This document shows, piece after piece, positions 44-26,435 of a stretch of DNA of 46,686 bases (the stretch's first letter is position 1; every line of letters starts with the position of its first letter). The position numbers and the translations under genes are program-made. The DNA comes from Phycisphaeraceae bacterium (GTDB taxonomy: Bacteria > Planctomycetota > Phycisphaerae > Phycisphaerales > UBA1924): NCBI GenBank assembly GCA_007693965.1, contig RECQ01000049.1:1-46686 (forward strand), read 5' to 3'. Below the pieces are notes generated by a model. It was not told where the DNA came from. It worked only from the letters and a program-made list of their open reading frames with translations, and searched no databases.

Positions 44-1528
44 TCATCCCTCACCCCCTCCGTATCCCAGCTCTTCGAGGACGCGCTCCCGCGCCACGCC
101 CAGGTCGCGTTTGAGGAGCGCGGTCTCCAGGCGTTCGCGCTCGGTGGTCGGCAGCGGCTCGGGCCATTCGATGCGCACCCCGCGCTCCGATTCGCTTGTC
201 CGGTAGATCCCCGCGCTGTCCAGCGCCTTGAGGACCAGCGCCGCCGCCTGCGACAGGCCGCGCCCGTACATCACCTGCTTGCGCGCTGTCTTGGCGAGCA
301 TCCCCATCAGCGTGACGCGCAGCGCGTTCTCGCTCGAGAGATTGCCAATGCGGTCGCGGATCACCCCCGCGGCCAGCGGCGACACGCTGGACGCCTTGTC
401 CATCGCCTCGCGCACCTGTTCGATGTGGCTCTCTTCACCGGGCGAATCGCCGTCGCCGCCGAAGGCCTGCACGCTCGCCTCGGGGTTGTCGGTGCTCCAG
501 ACCTGCCCCGGCCCGACGCGCGGCGGCTCGGCGCCGGTGAACATCGACTCGACGCCCTTGGCCAGGTACATCTTGAACGACTGCATCGTCACGCGGTGGG
601 CGCGGTCGCTGAGGCGCGTGTTCAGCTCGTCCTGCAGCGGGATCAGCGGCTCGACCTCGCTGAGGCCGGCGTAGTGGAAGGGCTGCGAGATGTTCTGAAT
701 GTGCGCGATCGGCACGACGCCCAGCGGGTTCGGCGCCGATTCGACAAGCGCGCCGTCTTCGTACACGTGGCGGCGCGATGCGGAGATGATCTCGATCACC
801 TCGACCTCGACGCGCCGACGGCGCGAACGCCGCCCCAGCGCCCGCGCCAGCAGGCGAGGCGTCGCGGCGCCCTCTTCAACGCCGCCGCCGGCGCGAACCG
901 TGCGCACCAACATCGCCTGCAAACGCCGGTAGTCGGACGGATCCAGCAGCGGGATCGCCCGCGGCGCCTCGATCAGCTCGATGCGGATGCGCTCGGCGAG
1001 CTCGACATCGCGCTCGATCGGCGCCCCGCTCGCAGCGCCGGCGCCGAATGCATCGTCAGCGCGCACCAGCAGATCGACGTGGCCGTAGACCGAACCCAGC
1101 AGCGCCATGTCCTGCAGCAGCGCCATGCCGCCGGAGGCGGTGAGAACGGCGCCGAGCAGGCGCTCGATCTCGGCGCGGCGCTGCGGATCCTTCGCCTCGC
1201 TGCGCAGCGCCACCGGGCGGCCGAACATGAGATCGACCATGGCGTGGATGCGCCAGGCGATGTCGTTCTCGATGACGATCTCGCGGAGCGCATCGTCGCG
1301 GTCGTCGGCGCCGGTGTCGCGCCGGCCGCGGAGGCGGGAGGGAAGTCCCGCCTCCTGCGCCAGGCGCGTCCGCCCCGCGCCCGCAGGCGCCGAGACGATG
1401 GGATTGCGGTAGTAGGACCAGAGGCGATCGAGCGCGGGCAGGTCGCGCTCTTCGTGCTCATCGAGCAGGAGGCGCAGGAGCGCTTCGTCGAGCCCGATCT
1501 CGTTGAATGGTTGAAGCTGGAATGGCAT
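44..1528 (-). CDS. Phage portal protein, SPP1 gp6-like
   Basis: A 494-residue protein that I read as a tailed-phage portal, the dodecameric ring at the capsid vertex through which DNA is packaged. The visible support is the overall pattern of the SPP1 gp6 family: an N-terminal segment with NDIAWRIHAMVDLMFGRPV near residues 88-106, a central stretch PIAHIQNISQPFHYAGLSEV followed by LIPLQDELNTRLSDRAHRVT, and a helical C-terminal part ending in an acidic tail. The length matches the family (about 500 residues). It starts at the ATG at 1526-1528 with only a weak G-rich Shine-Dalgarno. No terminase gene lies upstream: the next gene on the right is a divergent esterase. Any other phage genes would be left of the window. 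Alternative: a domesticated gene-transfer-agent portal. Confidence 0.72.
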   Translation of the reverse strand: MPFQLQPFNEIGLDEALLRLLLDEHEERDLPALDRLWSYYRNPIVSAPAGAGRTRLAQEAGLPSRLRGRRDTGADDRDDALREIVIENDIAWRIHAMVDLMFGRPVALRSEAKDPQRRAEIERLLGAVLTASGGMALLQDMALLGSVYGHVDLLVRADDAFGAGAASGAPIERDVELAERIRIELIEAPRAIPLLDPSDYRRLQAMLVRTVRAGGGVEEGAATPRLLARALGRRSRRRRVEVEVIEIISASRRHVYEDGALVESAPNPLGVVPIAHIQNISQPFHYAGLSEVEPLIPLQDELNTRLSDRAHRVTMQSFKMYLAKGVESMFTGAEPPRVGPGQVWSTDNPEASVQAFGGDGDSPGEESHIEQVREAMDKASSVSPLAAGVIRDRIGNLSSENALRVTLMGMLAKTARKQVMYGRGLSQAAALVLKALDSAGIYRTSESERGVRIEWPEPLPTTERERLETALLKRDLGVARERVLEELGYGGGEG

Positions 1529-4447: not shown

Positions 4448-5374
4448 TCACCACACAACATCCACACTCCCCGCCACCCCCAGCACGCAGCTCACCACGC
4501 CGTTGAGCGTAAAAAACGCCAGCGGCAGGCCGGCCACGCCTCGCTTCGCCAGCACCACGTGCTCGTACACCAGCAGCCCCCCCACACCCGCGGCCGCCGT
4601 CCCGAAGAGCCAACCGAAGCGCGGCTCGGCGCCCCAGGCCAGGGCCAGCATGGCGAAGGCGCCGAGGTGCAGCAGCCGCGCGGCCCACAGGGCGCCGCCC
4701 GCCCCCAGCTTCGCCGGGACGCTGCGCAGCCCGGTTTCGCGATCGAAATTCAGATCCTGCAGGGCGTAGGCGACATCGAACCCCGCCACCCACAGCAGGA
4801 CCATCCCCGCGATGAGCCAAAGCGCCGGCGTGGCGCCCAGCGCCTCCGGATGCACCGCGATCGCCGCGGCCAGCGGGCTCGCCGCCAGCGCCCCGCCAAG
4901 GAACAAATGGCACAACGCCGTGAACCGCTTGGTGAAGCTGTAGAAACCGATCCACGCCAGCGTCGGCACACTGAGCAGCAGCGGCCATGTGTTCCCGAAG
5001 AAGACCAGGAACAGGCCGCAGGTGGCTAGAAAAGCTGCCGCGGCCCCCAGCGCCACCGCCAGCCCGGCCCGAGCGTCCAGCCGCCCCGACGCCATGGCCC
5101 GCCCCGCCGTCCGCGGGTTGGCGGCGTCAAACCGCCGATCCGCCAGCCGGTTCACCAGCATCGCCCAGGTCCGGGCGAAGAACATGCACACCACCACCAG
5201 CCCGAGCTGCCCGGCGAAGACGCCCCAGGACTCTTCACCCCGGGCCGCGGGCGTGGCCAGGAAGGCCCCGAGGACGGCGAAGGGGAGGGCGAACACCGTG
5301 TGGGCGAGCTTGATGTCGGAGAGGGCGAGGGCGAGGGGGTGAGTGCGCGGAATTGAAACCGAAGGCGTGGTCAT
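4448..5374 (-). CDS. UbiA-family polyprenyltransferase (4-hydroxybenzoate or futalosine-pathway type)
   Basis: A 308-residue integral membrane prenyltransferase that attaches a polyprenyl chain to an aromatic ring. Both Asp-rich motifs are visible: NRLADRRFD near residues 75-83 and DVAYALQDLNFDRETG near residues 200-215; between and after them are about eight hydrophobic helices. Length is usual for UbiA/MqnP. With the flavin prenyltransferase UbiX encoded nearby, it fits the decarboxylation/prenylation end of quinone synthesis. In planctomycetes, which usually make menaquinone, the MqnP role of the futalosine route is a reasonable inference; classical UbiA is the alternative. Its ATG (5372-5374) lies at the edge of the palindrome at 5373-5400. 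Confidence 0.85.
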   Translation of the reverse strand: MTTPSVSIPRTHPLALALSDIKLAHTVFALPFAVLGAFLATPAARGEESWGVFAGQLGLVVVCMFFARTWAMLVNRLADRRFDAANPRTAGRAMASGRLDARAGLAVALGAAAAFLATCGLFLVFFGNTWPLLLSVPTLAWIGFYSFTKRFTALCHLFLGGALAASPLAAAIAVHPEALGATPALWLIAGMVLLWVAGFDVAYALQDLNFDRETGLRSVPAKLGAGGALWAARLLHLGAFAMLALAWGAEPRFGWLFGTAAAGVGGLLVYEHVVLAKRGVAGLPLAFFTLNGVVSCVLGVAGSVDVVW

Positions 5375-5400
5375 TTCAAAATTACATGGTATATTGAAAT
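5373..5400. promoter_or_regulatory. Palindromic operator-like site 1 upstream of the first Fic gene
   Basis: Arms ATTTCAA (5373-5379) and TTGAAAT (5394-5400) separated by 14 bases, total 28. The arms and spacing are identical to site 2 at 5445-5472. It is AT-rich against a very GC-rich background. It touches the start codon of the leftward prenyltransferase gene, so binding could affect both directions. Operator function is inference. Confidence 0.6.
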
Positions 5401-5444
5401 TGGATCGATTTCCTTTTCAGTGCTTTGAAATGATGGGCCGATCT

Positions 5445-5472
5445 ATTTCAATATTGCGGCTATTTTTGAAAT
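5445..5472. promoter_or_regulatory. Palindromic operator-like site 2 upstream of the first Fic gene
   Basis: Arms ATTTCAA (5445-5451) and TTGAAAT (5466-5472) with a 14-base spacer, the same design as site 1 and 72 bases downstream of it. An extra half-site TTGAAAT lies between them at 5425-5431. The site ends 64 bases before the Fic ATG. It is a likely binding site for a dimeric regulator, possibly the Fic protein itself through its C-terminal winged helix. Confidence 0.6.
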
Positions 5473-5536
5473 AGCAGGACAAAAAGGACTCTTCAGGCCG
5501 GCCAAGAGGGCTTTTCCCGGACGGAGCGGCGATCAG

Positions 5537-6691
5537 ATGGACACAACCCTCTTTCAATCATCGGCGCCCGGCGAGCTGGTGCGGATCGCGAATGGGGAAT
5601 TCGCCTTCGTGCCGGCGCCGTTGCCGACGACGATGGCGCTCGGGCCGGAACAGTACACGCTCATGGCCCGGGCCGCCGGGGCGATCGGCGAGATCAGAGG
5701 CCTCACCGCGCCAGAGCTTGTCTCGACGCCCAGCGTCCTGCTGCGTCCGCTTCAGCGCGAGGAGTCGCTGCGAAGCTCGAGCCTCGAAGGAACGCATGCG
5801 ACGCCGGAGGAGCTGCTCCTCTTCGAGCTCGGTCCGACCGACGCCGCATCCGAGCGCGACCCCGTGAACCGCTGGCGCGAAGTGCACAACCACGACCTGG
5901 CGCTTCAGCAGGGCGAAAACCTTCTCGAGAGCGCCGGTCTCACGCTGTGGACAATTCGCGCCCTGCATCAGACGCTTCTCAGCGGCGTGCGCGGCCAGGA
6001 CAAGTCGCCGGGGAAGCTCCGGCCGCGGCAGGTCTTCATCGGCTCCGACCACCGCTTCATCCCGCCCCCGCCGGAGCTCGTCCCGGAGTTGATGGAGAGC
6101 CTCATCGAATGGTGGAGCGACTCTGACGACGAGGCGCCGCCGTTGGTGCGCGTGTTCCTGTTCCATTACCAGTTCGAAGCGATCCACCCTTTCCTGGACG
6201 GAAACGGGCGCGTGGGCAGGCTGCTCTTCTCGCTGATGCTGGCGAAGTGGTGCGGCCTCGACAGACCGTGGCTCTACCTCAGCGCCTACTTCGAGGCGCA
6301 CCGCGATGAATACTTCACCGGGCTGCACACGGTCAGCGTGCGCGGCGACTGGATTCGCTGGATCAATCTCTGCCTGCGCGCCGTCGTCGCGCAGGGCGCC
6401 GACACGGCGAGGAGGATCCGCCGGCTCATCGAACTTCGGAAAAACTGGCTCCAGGCCGTTCAAGCTGGAAAGCTGCACGCCCGCACACTGAAACTCGTCG
6501 ATCCGCTCTTCGAGCGGCCGATCGTCAATGTGCCGCTGGCGCAGGAGATTCTTGGCGTCGCCTACAACACCGCGCGAAAAGATCTCGACAATCTTGTGAC
6601 GATCGGTGTTCTCTCGCTCATGCTTCACGCCGACCAGCGCACCTACATCGCGCACGAAGTCATGCGCATCGTGCATGGCTCAGACCGCTGA
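5537..6691 (+). CDS. Fic-domain protein (AMPylase-type) with Fic_N and C-terminal winged helix
   Basis: A 384-residue Fic protein, a family that transfers AMP (or another nucleotide moiety) from a nucleotide to a hydroxyl on a target protein. Domains in order: a Fic_N region (residues about 20-110) containing the self-inhibition helix SSSLEG, which fits [S/T]xxxE[G/N]; the Fic core with HPFLDGNGRVGRLL near residues 213-226, matching HxFx[D/E]GNGRxxR; and a C-terminal winged-helix segment VPLAQEILGVAYNTARKDLDNL. All catalytic residues are intact, so it is an auto-inhibited active enzyme by family knowledge. The ATG at 5537 is preceded by a region with two matched palindromes. It converges with ubiX, leaving 22 bases. 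No antitoxin-like partner gene is adjacent. Confidence 0.9.
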   Translation: MDTTLFQSSAPGELVRIANGEFAFVPAPLPTTMALGPEQYTLMARAAGAIGEIRGLTAPELVSTPSVLLRPLQREESLRSSSLEGTHATPEELLLFELGPTDAASERDPVNRWREVHNHDLALQQGENLLESAGLTLWTIRALHQTLLSGVRGQDKSPGKLRPRQVFIGSDHRFIPPPPELVPELMESLIEWWSDSDDEAPPLVRVFLFHYQFEAIHPFLDGNGRVGRLLFSLMLAKWCGLDRPWLYLSAYFEAHRDEYFTGLHTVSVRGDWIRWINLCLRAVVAQGADTARRIRRLIELRKNWLQAVQAGKLHARTLKLVDPLFERPIVNVPLAQEILGVAYNTARKDLDNLVTIGVLSLMLHADQRTYIAHEVMRIVHGSDR

Positions 6692-24193: not shown

Positions 24194-25522
24194 TCAGGAC
24201 ATCGCATCCGCGAGCTTCGGGCCGGCGGCGAAGACGAACTTCCTGCCTTCTCGCGATTTGACCAGATAGCCGCGCTCCGCCAGCTTCAACAAATCGGTGC
24301 GCGCTGTTTCGTAGATCACTCCGTGCTTGTCTCGATGTTCGTCGATTGTGAAGAAGCGATCCGGGTTCCTGCTTATTTCCAGAAGTGTTTCGCGTTGACG
24401 ATGGTTCAGCGCCGCATCACTCGAAAAAACTGTGCGGGCCGTGCGCATCTCCGCATGCTTCCTGGCAATATAGGCGGAAAGTTGCTTCCGCGCCCTGCTG
24501 ATGACCGCGATGTGATACCGAAGAAAATAAGTGATGTCGTAATCATCCGTTTCAGAATACAGGTACGCGCGGACGTACTTGCCCGGCGCATCGTAGATGA
24601 GGCGTGAAATCGGCAGGTATTCGAAGAGCCAGTATCCACTGCGCAGCATGAACCAGTAGAAGAGCGCCCTGGCCGTGCGCCCATTGCCGTCGCAGAATGG
24701 ATGATCGAAACCGATCTGAAAATGCAGGATGCACGCCTTGATGACCGGATGGATGAATTCCGTTGCGTCGTTGTCATCCTCATTGGCGAATGTGTACAAC
24801 GCATCGAGGCGTTCGCGAAGCTCAGCAGCGTCCGGCGGCGTGTGGACGACTTCTCCATCGCGTTGATCCACCACCGCGACTTCGTCATCGGAGGTGCGAA
24901 ACCGCCCCACCTGCTCCGGGTCGTCGAGCGTGTCCACAGTCAGCATGCCCTGAAGTTCGAGCAGGAACTCGTCGGAGAGGTTCGTGCTGCCATGCTCGCG
25001 GATGAACTGGATCGCGCGGTAGTTGTTCAGCACCATGCGCTCGCCGCGGGTCCGCGGCTTGCGGCCTTTTTTCAGCATCCGACGCGCCTCGACCCGCGTC
25101 GTCGCGGCGCCTTCCAGCATGCTGGAGGCGATTGCCTCCTCCCGCAGCGCCCGCACGATGAACCGCTCACGGTCACTCCGCGAAAACGGCTGCTCGTCCC
25201 CCACACCGATCTGCCCCGCGAGTTCGCGATCGATGAGCATCAGCGATCGCTGCATCCCGTCCGTGGAGAGAAACCTGAGCGGACGATCGGCCCCGCGCAG
25301 TGGAAGCTCGCGATATCGGACCATCCTCCCCATCTTGACCATCGCCCACGCCGGCTCGGGCTCGAGCCCTTGCCCGCGAGCGATGAAGACGAGTTTGTCC
25401 CAATGCAGATATCGCTCCTCGCACAGCCGCGCCAGGGCCTGATACTCAGGCCCAGCCGCCTTGGCGAGGAGTCCTTCCACACCGATGTCCCAGATGTCAG
25501 GCGGCTTTTTCGGAATACGCAC
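24194..25522 (-). CDS. Fic-domain protein (second), with C-terminal winged helix
   Basis: A 442-residue Fic protein of a different subgroup from the one at 5537. Residues about 1-120 form an unassigned N-terminal helical region. The inhibitory helix reads SSMLEG near residues 133-138, matching [S/T]xxxE[G/N]. The active-site motif is HPFCDGNGRTARALFYW, complete for HxFx[D/E]GNGRxxR. The C-terminal part has FFTIDEHRDKHGVIYETART followed by a wing, a likely DNA-binding helix. I prefer the GTG at 25520-25522 over the TTG at 25531 because GGGAG lies nine bases upstream of the GTG. Two matched palindromes sit just upstream. Target and partner unknown. Confidence 0.88.
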   Translation of the reverse strand: MRIPKKPPDIWDIGVEGLLAKAAGPEYQALARLCEERYLHWDKLVFIARGQGLEPEPAWAMVKMGRMVRYRELPLRGADRPLRFLSTDGMQRSLMLIDRELAGQIGVGDEQPFSRSDRERFIVRALREEAIASSMLEGAATTRVEARRMLKKGRKPRTRGERMVLNNYRAIQFIREHGSTNLSDEFLLELQGMLTVDTLDDPEQVGRFRTSDDEVAVVDQRDGEVVHTPPDAAELRERLDALYTFANEDDNDATEFIHPVIKACILHFQIGFDHPFCDGNGRTARALFYWFMLRSGYWLFEYLPISRLIYDAPGKYVRAYLYSETDDYDITYFLRYHIAVISRARKQLSAYIARKHAEMRTARTVFSSDAALNHRQRETLLEISRNPDRFFTIDEHRDKHGVIYETARTDLLKLAERGYLVKSREGRKFVFAAGPKLADAMS

Positions 25523-25531
25523 TTGGACCAA

Positions 25532-25536
25532 CTCCC
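25532..25536 (-). promoter_or_regulatory. Shine-Dalgarno favouring the GTG start of the second Fic gene
   Basis: GGGAG on the minus strand lies nine bases before GTG 25522, but only zero to one base before the TTG at 25531. Confidence 0.65.
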
Positions 25537-25542
25537 AGAATA

Positions 25543-25567
25543 CTACTAAACCTGTCTGGATTAGTAG
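25543..25567. promoter_or_regulatory. Palindromic operator-like site 1 upstream of the second Fic gene
   Basis: Arms CTACTAA (25543-25549) and TTAGTAG (25561-25567) around 11 bases, total 25. It lies 20 bases before the GTG start, right behind the Shine-Dalgarno, so binding could block transcription or ribosome entry. Confidence 0.6.
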
Positions 25568-25593
25568 TTCGCCCAGAGCTTACTCCCAATCAA

Positions 25594-25618
25594 CTACTAA
25601 TTCAAACTGCATTAGTAG
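25594..25618. promoter_or_regulatory. Palindromic operator-like site 2 upstream of the second Fic gene
   Basis: Identical arms and spacing to site 1 (CTACTAA at 25594-25600, TTAGTAG at 25612-25618), 51 bases away, which is close to five helical turns. The rest of the 25523-25847 gap before rpsL is GC-rich from about 25640 on and shows no recognisable promoter. Confidence 0.6.
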
Positions 25619-25847
25619 ATAGCTAGTATATTGGCCTTCGAGGCGCCAGATCCGAGCTCGCAGAACCCGCTGAACGCCCCTCACCGGCAATCGGCGGCCG
25701 AGCCTCCGGCCGGACCCCGCTTCCGATCGACCCCCCGCCCCCGCTTGCATCCCCCTCCGGTGCGGCTACACTGCCCGGCTCGCCTGAAAACAGGCCGAGG
25801 CCGGGGGGCCCGGCCCGCGAACCCGATCCAATTCTCACAGAACGCCC

Positions 25848-26219
25848 ATGCCCACGATTAATCAGCTCATCCGCAATCCCCGCCGCCCGCAGGTGGCCAA
25901 GTCGAAGGTCCGCGACATTGAGAAGTGTCCGCAGCGCCGCGGCGTGTGCCTCCAGGTGCGCACCGTCACGCCCAAGAAGCCCAACTCGGCGCTTCGCAAG
26001 GTCGCTCGCGTGCGCCTCTCCAATGGTCGTGAAGTCACCGCCTACATCGGCGGCGAGGGCCACAACCTGCAGGAGCACTCGATCGTGCTCGTCCGCGGCG
26101 GACGCGTGCGCGACCTTCCCGGTGTGCGCTACCACATCGTCCGCGGCTCGCTCGACTGCCTCGGCGTCGACGGCCGCAAGCAGGGACGATCGAAGTACGG
26201 CGCCAAGCGAGGGAAGTAA
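25848..26219 (+). CDS. rpsL: 30S ribosomal protein S12
   Basis: A 123-residue S12, part of the decoding centre of the small subunit. The universal stretches are intact: [32 protein letters not shown] (the Lys pair of the streptomycin-contact loop), [20 protein letters not shown], and [19 protein letters not shown] with the loop that is methylthiolated in many bacteria, then [11 protein letters not shown]. Length is standard. The ATG at 25848 has no strong Shine-Dalgarno. It is followed by repeats and then rpsG. Confidence 0.98.
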
Positions 26220-26223
26220 GAGA

Positions 26224-26331
26224 AGTACCGAGTACCGAGTACCGAGTACCGAGTACCGAGTACCGAGTACTGAGTACTGAGTACTGAGATTCGAGTTCGG
26301 ACGCCCATTGCCTATTGCCCATTCCCCATTG
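26224..26331 (+). repeat. Two heptanucleotide arrays between rpsL and rpsG
   Basis: Nine perfect-register units AGTACCG (six) and AGTACTG (three) run 26224-26286. After a 17-base spacer come four units of CCCATTG/CCTATTG/CCCATTC at 26304-26331. The arrays take up half of the 216-base gap between two co-oriented ribosomal genes. Confidence 0.9.
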
Positions 26332-26435
26332 CCTTTCCCCAACACCCACGGCAAGTAATCCCGATCGCCCGGCCGGCGACGGGGTGAACAAAGATCCCTC
26401 ATTGCAGGGCAGATGAGCCGAAGGAGATTTTCATC

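Follow-up and report, generated by a model that had tools for sequence, protein, structure and literature searches.

The window analysed here, the whole 46,686-nucleotide (nt) stretch of contig RECQ01000049.1 from a Phycisphaeraceae bacterium (GCA_007693965.1), carries two Fic genes, Fic1 and Fic2, and no other PF02661 gene was found in the genome. We were concerned mainly with Fic2 and the paired inverted repeats that precede it (Table 1). The listed open reading frame of Fic2 begins at TTG 25531, but GTG 25522 was taken as the start because GGGAG is well placed before it and because the MRIP-like N-terminus obtained with GTG 25522 is the start of most aligned relatives. A first-pass annotation had described two copies of CTACTAA-N11-TTAGTAG, 51 bases apart and with identical arms and spacers, just behind the Shine-Dalgarno sequence of this gene. 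Both copies were recovered with perfect arms, 51 bp from start to start and upstream of GGGAG, the proximal one (O2) ending 20 nt before the start codon; the arms are indeed identical, but the spacers (ACCTGTCTGGA and TTCAAACTGCA) share their length and not their sequence. In addition, an imperfect fifth half-site with the core TACTAG, one mismatch away from TACTAA, lies one turn beyond the distal palindrome (O1), and no such outer half-site is present at O2. When up to three mismatches were allowed, O1 and O2 were the sole matches to the pattern in the window (0.07 expected; none of 100 shuffles had two), and with up to two mismatches they were the sole places in the genome (3.48 Mb, 97.7% complete), in which the pattern read backwards gave 14 matches. 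With no further genomic site within two mismatches, no regulon beyond Fic2's own gene was found.

By its predicted activity, Fic2 is a class II Fic adenosine monophosphate (AMP)-transferase. The Fic motif HxFx(D/E)(A/G)N(G/K)R is present as HPFCDGNGR at residues 274-282, and the inhibitory helix (S/T)xxxE(G/N) that marks class II lies N-terminal to the Fic fold, both motifs being as defined in the accessible part of PMC10628234; H274, N280, G281 and R282 of the former and S133, E137 and G138 of the latter were invariant in 29 aligned sequences. The C-terminal winged helix attributed to Fic2 could be seen in an AlphaFold2 model (mean predicted local distance difference test score 88.6), with helices at residues 374-385, 393-400 and 404-416 and wing strands at 420-425 and 428-433. 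The recognition helix in this model is 404-416, with Y404 and E405 as its first two residues. The nearest solved fold, as the best Foldseek match, is that of SoFic (3eqx).

Table 1. Features of the two Fic loci in the window
Feature	Position	Strand	Basis or remark
Second Fic gene (Fic2, P0002), 442 amino acids, GTG start	24194-25522	-	PF02661, 63.1 bits; predicted class II Fic AMP-transferase with C-terminal winged helix
Winged helix-turn-helix of Fic2, residues 374-433	24224-24403	-	AlphaFold2 model
Codons of Y404 and E405, covarying with the operator half-site	24308-24313	-	Scan, model and contingency tables
Fic active-site motif HPFCDGNGRTAR, residues 274-285	24668-24703	-	Translation
Inhibitory motif SSMLEG, residues 133-138	25109-25126	-	Alignment
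Shine-Dalgarno sequence GGGAG	25532-25536	-	Sequence; 9 nt before GTG 25522
Putative proximal operator O2, CTACTAA-N11-TTAGTAG	25543-25567	.	Sequence, perfect arms
Putative distal operator O1, CTACTAA-N11-TTAGTAG	25594-25618	.	Sequence, perfect arms
Outer half-site ATACTAG (imperfect fifth)	25623-25629	-	11 bp outside O1, same orientation as O1 half-site
First Fic gene (Fic1, P0001), 384 amino acids, SoFic-like, same overall design	5537-6691	+	PADLOC SoFic, 4.3e-94
Distal palindrome of Fic1, ATTTCAA-N14-TTGAAAT	5373-5400	.	Sequence
Proximal palindrome of Fic1, ATTTCAA-N14-TTGAAAT	5445-5472	.	Sequence

Homologous loci were drawn from the class and phylum of the window, from a scan of species genomes (the best 80 of at least 496 relatives among the candidates) and from viral contigs (the best 9 of 80 loci). 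Of 163 Fic2-lineage loci given to the operator caller, seven (L015, L144, L207, L237, L238, L245 and L246) were excluded for an upstream stretch shorter than 180 nt, leaving 156 that were scored; L239 was excluded as a second copy of L078. For each gene, the caller took the region from -260 to +30 and returned the best pair of equally spaced palindromes with four agreeing half-sites, the main setting using 8-bp arms, 8-10 bp between arms and a threshold of at least 28/32. This score, judged against shuffles and two natural controls (downstream stretches, and far-upstream stretches at -550 to -260), superseded the counting of single 7-mers that had given the first lead. A matched pair of palindromes was present before the gene in 89/156 loci at 28/32 or more, versus 6/780 shuffles, 4/151 downstream stretches and 4/151 far-upstream stretches, levels at which a single locus scoring 28/32 may still be due to chance; at 29/32 or more, 65/156 loci stood against none of 780 dinucleotide shuffles and none of 151 stretches in either natural control. 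An independent setting (7-bp arms, spacers of 4-20, at least 26/28) gave 92/147 loci, against 8/735 shuffles, 9/142 downstream stretches and 0/143 stretches further upstream. Inverted repeats before other Fic-winged-helix genes, for which the first-pass annotation had proposed a search, are therefore far above background in the Fic2 lineage. Named records with a called operator belonged to Planctomycetota (4/7), Pseudomonadota (12/16), Bacteroidota (6/17) and Actinomycetota (5/10), to Verrucomicrobiota, Nitrospirota, Omnitrophota and Hydrogenedentota, and, among archaea, to Methanobacteriota (3/3) and Microcaldota (1/1); none of the three Myxococcota was called, and 15 of 21 other members of the window's phylum were listed among the misses. 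Because many of the records are metagenome-assembled, single taxonomic placements should be read carefully.

The half-site word was then compared with the protein. Half-sites from 82 called loci, thinned to 76 non-redundant ones, were aligned blind to the protein and scanned by mutual information over 2461 pairs of a protein column and a half-site position. Three pairs led the ranking, with z scores of 14.2 and 12.9 for residue 405, paired with half-site positions 5 and 4, and of 14.0 for residue 404, paired with position 3; the pair ranked fourth reached 10.0. In 88 of the 89 called loci (L079, without the helix, was left out), the half-site has the form N-T-n3-n4n5-A-A-T. Y404 goes with A at n3, giving TA, in 58/60 loci, and any other residue at 404 with A in 3/28; A or G at 405 goes with TC at n4n5 in 11/11, and Q or E at 405 with CT in 60/69 and with TC in 0/69. 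After thinning to less than 70% identity, the corresponding counts were 47/49 (Y404 with A), 3/27 (other residues with A), 11/11 (A/G405 with TC) and 48/57 (Q/E405 with CT). Of the rarer residues, those at 404 that go with TG are V, T, R and, in part, H and P (one or two loci each), and D405 goes with CC (one or two loci). The same correspondence can be followed within the window's own clade (54-57% identity), in which Fic2, with Y-E, has TACTAA, whereas TATCAA occurs in relatives with Y-G or Y-A, and TCAA at the same place in one with N-A. These data support a word that follows the helix, residue 404 probably pairing with n3 and residue 405 with n4n5. One archaeal locus, L189 (Methanoregulaceae), has an exact CTACTAA-N11-TTAGTAG at 2315-2339, on the upstream side of the TGTAAA operators that are its own; this copy of Fic2's word is not explained by the L-Q helix of L189, and a second frame with a Fic motif lies at 4820-5917.

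Outer half-sites, scanned in those 76 of the 88 loci whose core was fully resolved, peaked at 10-11 bp outward in the same orientation, at O1 in 45/76 loci, that of the window included, and at O2 in 31/76, with only 0-4 loci at the other offsets scanned. At least one outer half-site was present in 51/76 loci, and both, making six half-sites in two-fold symmetry, in 25/76; half-sites 10-11 bp on the inner side were rarer (7/76 at O1, 16/76 at O2). Six half-sites as a rule thus had to be narrowed, since both outer sites occur in 25/76 only and inner extras also occur. A sigma70-like promoter with its -10 box (TATACTAA and similar) in the left arm of O2 was found in 20/88 loci, where shuffles gave an expectation of 0.5, and 18 of the matches were at one offset; in the three other arms, all with the same word, a -10 box was found in 2, 1 and 1 of 88 loci. 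In some relatives the -35 box is between the operators and the -10 box within the left arm of O2. With the -10 box in this arm in 20/88 loci, the geometry is that of a repressor. Helical phasing of the O1/O2 distance is absent in Fic2's family, in which a promoter lying between the sites is the likelier reason for their spacing.

The data are best explained by O1 and O2 being, very probably, the cognate operator pair of Fic2's own winged helix, by which class II Fic enzymes of this kind would repress their own promoter; autoregulation of Fic2 is what we infer from these comparisons of sequences. Fic dimers would occupy both palindromes, often together with the half-site one turn outside, and this occupancy would exclude RNA polymerase, because some relatives have their -35 box between the operators and their -10 box inside the left arm of O2. 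Repression would keep a potentially toxic AMP-transferase low and self-limited, and some signal would relieve it. Alternatively, the sites may be an allosteric platform, on which operator DNA switches AMPylation or deAMPylation and repression is secondary. CbFic2, a class II Fic enzyme of Coxiella burnetii, is stimulated by DNA according to the accessible text of PMC10628234, but no sequence-specific activation of CbFic2 was found in that portion of the paper, and the overlap of promoter elements with the operators in 20/88 loci is what repression predicts; we consider this alternative unlikely.

Shared ancestry alone, with related proteins retaining related operators and the helix tracking phylogeny without contact, is very improbable. 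Half-site similarity does correlate with whole-protein identity (r 0.41), but the columns ranked highest in the blind scan, residues 404 and 405, are those with which the recognition helix of the model begins, and independent branches change in the same way. In a tree computed with the winged helix excluded, Y404 changed 16 times and base A3 17 times, and of 8 independent supported pairs compared, 7.3 on average changed the same way and 0 the opposite way (median p 0.016). Moreover, the rule was fixed before new loci were fetched from 11 genomes and from plasmids (8 homologues, taken from 19 plasmid records with a match). Of these 19 held-out loci, seven, all from genomes, reached the threshold and 12 were without an operator call; the rule was right at both positions in 7/7, including L337, whose half-site departs from the common form in not having T at its second position. 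At L330, L336 and L337, three of these seven, the word differs from that of the nearest called relative, so that relatedness would mispredict words that the helix predicted. Below the threshold, L329 agreed, L333 agreed at n3 with n4 unresolved, L334 was unresolved and L338 had no usable site. The covariation of arm and recognition helix, which the first-pass annotation had suggested as a check, was therefore borne out in the Fic2 lineage by blind scan, tables, tree and held-out rule.

A slightly poorer case can be made for the palindromes as part of a divergent rpsL-rpsG ribosomal promoter bound by another regulator, with the Fic gene as a bystander. The rpsL gene starts at 25848, 229 bp past the distal palindrome and on the strand opposite to Fic2; in the family loci searched (with flanks of about 0.5 to 2.5 kb), however, rpsL was found beside a Fic gene in the window's locus only, the operators recur before Fic genes, and the bases of the half-sites vary with residues of the Fic protein, which makes this explanation highly improbable. 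As a real target of the operators rpsL was rejected, since within the searched flanks it adjoins a Fic gene in the window's locus only. Least credible of all, and refuted for the family overall, is that chance or AT-rich promoter composition yields repeated words before any such gene: the controls do reach weaker scores (9/142 downstream stretches at 26/28 or more in the looser setting, 4/151 at 28/32 or more), but 29/32 or more was reached in 0/780 dinucleotide shuffles and 0/302 natural neighbours, against 65/156 loci.

Several observations weigh against an operator pair read by Fic2's own helix. An operator was callable in only 57% of loci, 67/156 remaining below the threshold, as did 7 of the 9 viral-contig loci and all eight distant plasmid homologues (three Vibrio, Aeromonas, Rahnella, Persicobacter, Ilyobacter and Aureibacter). 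A sigma70-like promoter, with its -10 and -35 boxes, could not be recognised at the operators of the window itself. The correspondence of residue and base has exceptions: two Y404 loci lack A3, three loci without Y404 have it, and nine of the 69 loci with Q or E at 405 lack CT (L067, L156, L178, L186, L189, L191, L201, L212 and L219; three Actinomycetota, two Bacteroidota, two archaea, one Gemmataceae and one from the window's class). For residue 405, the tree offers less than for residue 404: comparing A/G with Q/E, all four supported pairs changed the same way (4/4), with only five changes on the tree and a sign test that is not significant (p 0.125); with every residue at 405 coded as Q/E or other, and n4n5 as CT or other, 3.9 of 8 pairs changed the same way and 0 the opposite way, 4.1 showing no base difference. 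Finally, in a coarser window scan the helix window 403-408 ranked first with a partial r of 0.41, and the protein window 317-322 was nearly equal (0.387 vs 0.409).

For Fic1, the first-pass annotation had noted the same design with a different word, and the inverted repeat ATTTCAA-N14-TTGAAAT does occur twice before this gene, 72 bp apart; an additional half-site, TTGAAAT, lies between the two copies at 5425-5431, and the pattern has six further genomic places with two mismatches. Matches of the Fic1 family in 116 genomes provided 90 loci, of which 89 were scored. Operators are enriched in this family, with 28/89 loci at 26/28 or more, against 2/445 shuffles, 3/87 stretches further upstream and 0/29 downstream. 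At 25/28 or more, with pairs closer than 25 bp excluded, the distances between sites in 47 loci were 31-32 bp (20 loci), 40-41 bp (18) and 71-72 bp (4), with one locus each at 62, 82, 92, 140 and 143 bp; they are helically phased (R 0.93 near 10.15 bp; L033-L062 and L082-L141), although the 47 loci are not 47 independent cases because some are close relatives. By eye, loci with the same helix start share common words (SKP or TKP with TAGTCAA-like words). In 23 non-redundant loci the helix window 342-347 ranked 5th of 351; in a looser set of 38 loci it fell outside the top ten, where only 338-343, which touches Y343, ranked 5th; and in a stratified test the helix pair ranked 20th against 203 other adjacent column pairs. 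The link between helix and word, as judged from these alignments, is only suggestive in this family, and the code of the Fic2 family, when carried over to Fic1 (Y-N with ATTTCAA), did not fit by eye. Of the general rule of autoregulated Fic-winged-helix proteins that had been drawn from the two genes, operators and helix link thus stood in the Fic2 lineage, whereas for the Fic1 family the operators are enriched and the helix link is only suggestive. One family locus, L040 (G221), has its SoFic-like match inside an open frame of 1100 codons, which may reflect a gene fusion or be no more than a GC-rich frame free of stops.

Elsewhere in the window, a nine-copy tandem repeat of the 7-bp unit AGTACCG lies between rpsL and rpsG at 26224-26288 and is followed by a second short-unit array (GCCCATT) at 26303-26341. 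An SPP1-type phage portal gene lies at the contig edge (44-1528), and both Fic genes found in the genome are on this same contig.

In Phd-Doc toxin-antitoxin operons, a Fic-fold toxin is self-regulated through operator binding, as is proposed here for Fic2, but the DNA-binding domain is on a separate antitoxin, whereas Fic2 has enzyme and DNA-binding domain in a single chain. Fusions of the latter kind have been discussed before: a helix-turn-helix (HTH) fused to Fic was suggested as a possible regulator of fic expression (Kinch et al. 2009; accessible text of PMC2686095). A 2009 toxin-antitoxin survey mentions, in its accessible part, separate DNA-binding partners of Fic/Doc (PMC2701414). The closest functional parallel is CccR of Yersinia pseudotuberculosis, an experimentally shown Fic-HTH autorepressor that binds inverted repeats close to its -35 and -10 boxes, supported by footprint, electrophoretic mobility shift and reporter data and dimeric in the crystal (PMC9755527, as far as accessible). 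Like Fic2, it has an N-terminal class II Fic domain, a C-terminal HTH and inverted repeats before its own gene; Fic2 as modelled is a single chain that holds both a Fic domain and a C-terminal HTH, as in CccR-like autorepressors, and the repeats upstream of its gene appear, from the covariation, to be matched to its own HTH. The CccR operator is, however, one palindrome, AGATAATCAT-N26-ATGATAATCT, in contrast to the two of Fic2 with 7-bp arms, N11 and outer half-sites, and CccR, unlike Fic2, is a secreted effector of a type VI secretion system; neither a family-wide operator survey nor a residue code was found in the part of PMC9755527 at hand. The CccR structure, 7xux, matches Fic2 only distantly by phmmer (3.4e-10).

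SoFic (SO_4266; 3eqx) resembles Fic2 in its Fic domain, class II inhibitory helix and C-terminal winged helix. It is described as an anti-phage toxin, Sofic, in the accessible text of PMC12249575, where no cognate operator was found, and its DNA binding is stated in that of PMC10628234 to be not experimentally demonstrated. The SoFic model of PADLOC, which prints no cut-off, matches both genes of the window (Fic2 at 9.2e-43; Fic1 in Table 1), but neither was classed as a SoFic equivalog because their scores (Fic1 136.2 bits, Fic2 55.3 bits) are below the NCBIfam cut-off of 550 bits. CbFic2 is likewise a class II Fic with a C-terminal winged HTH, which binds DNA, but it was assayed with random DNA and has a host histone target, and no cognate operator was found in the same excerpt (PMC10628234). 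A 2026 review of AMPylation mentions CccR autoregulation, and no operator survey was found in its accessible part (PMC12894286). Among the literature matches listed, with preprints and most subscription papers outside coverage, there was no family-wide survey of Fic-HTH operators and no recognition code. As far as searched, CccR is the one experimentally shown member of the Fic-HTH autorepressor kind, and the two-palindrome operator with outer half-sites and the two-residue code are a new form of it.

As a more tentative idea, one that we think has perhaps a modest chance of being right, Fic-winged-helix genes may be single-gene toxin modules in which the operator replaces the antitoxin: up to six symmetric half-sites would absorb the enzyme and close the promoter, and divergence of the two-residue code would insulate self-repressing toxins from one another, in many bacteria as well as in some archaea. 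Such a code, in which residue 404 goes with base 3 and residue 405 with bases 4-5, would represent a compact natural set of winged-helix specificities. For the SoFic-like C-terminal winged helix, for which no shown function was found apart from that of CccR, autorepression would provide one that is testable gene by gene. It would also offer an explanation of how an AMP-transferase that could be lethal stays controlled when it has no partner antitoxin, and it indicates where the releasing signal might be sought.
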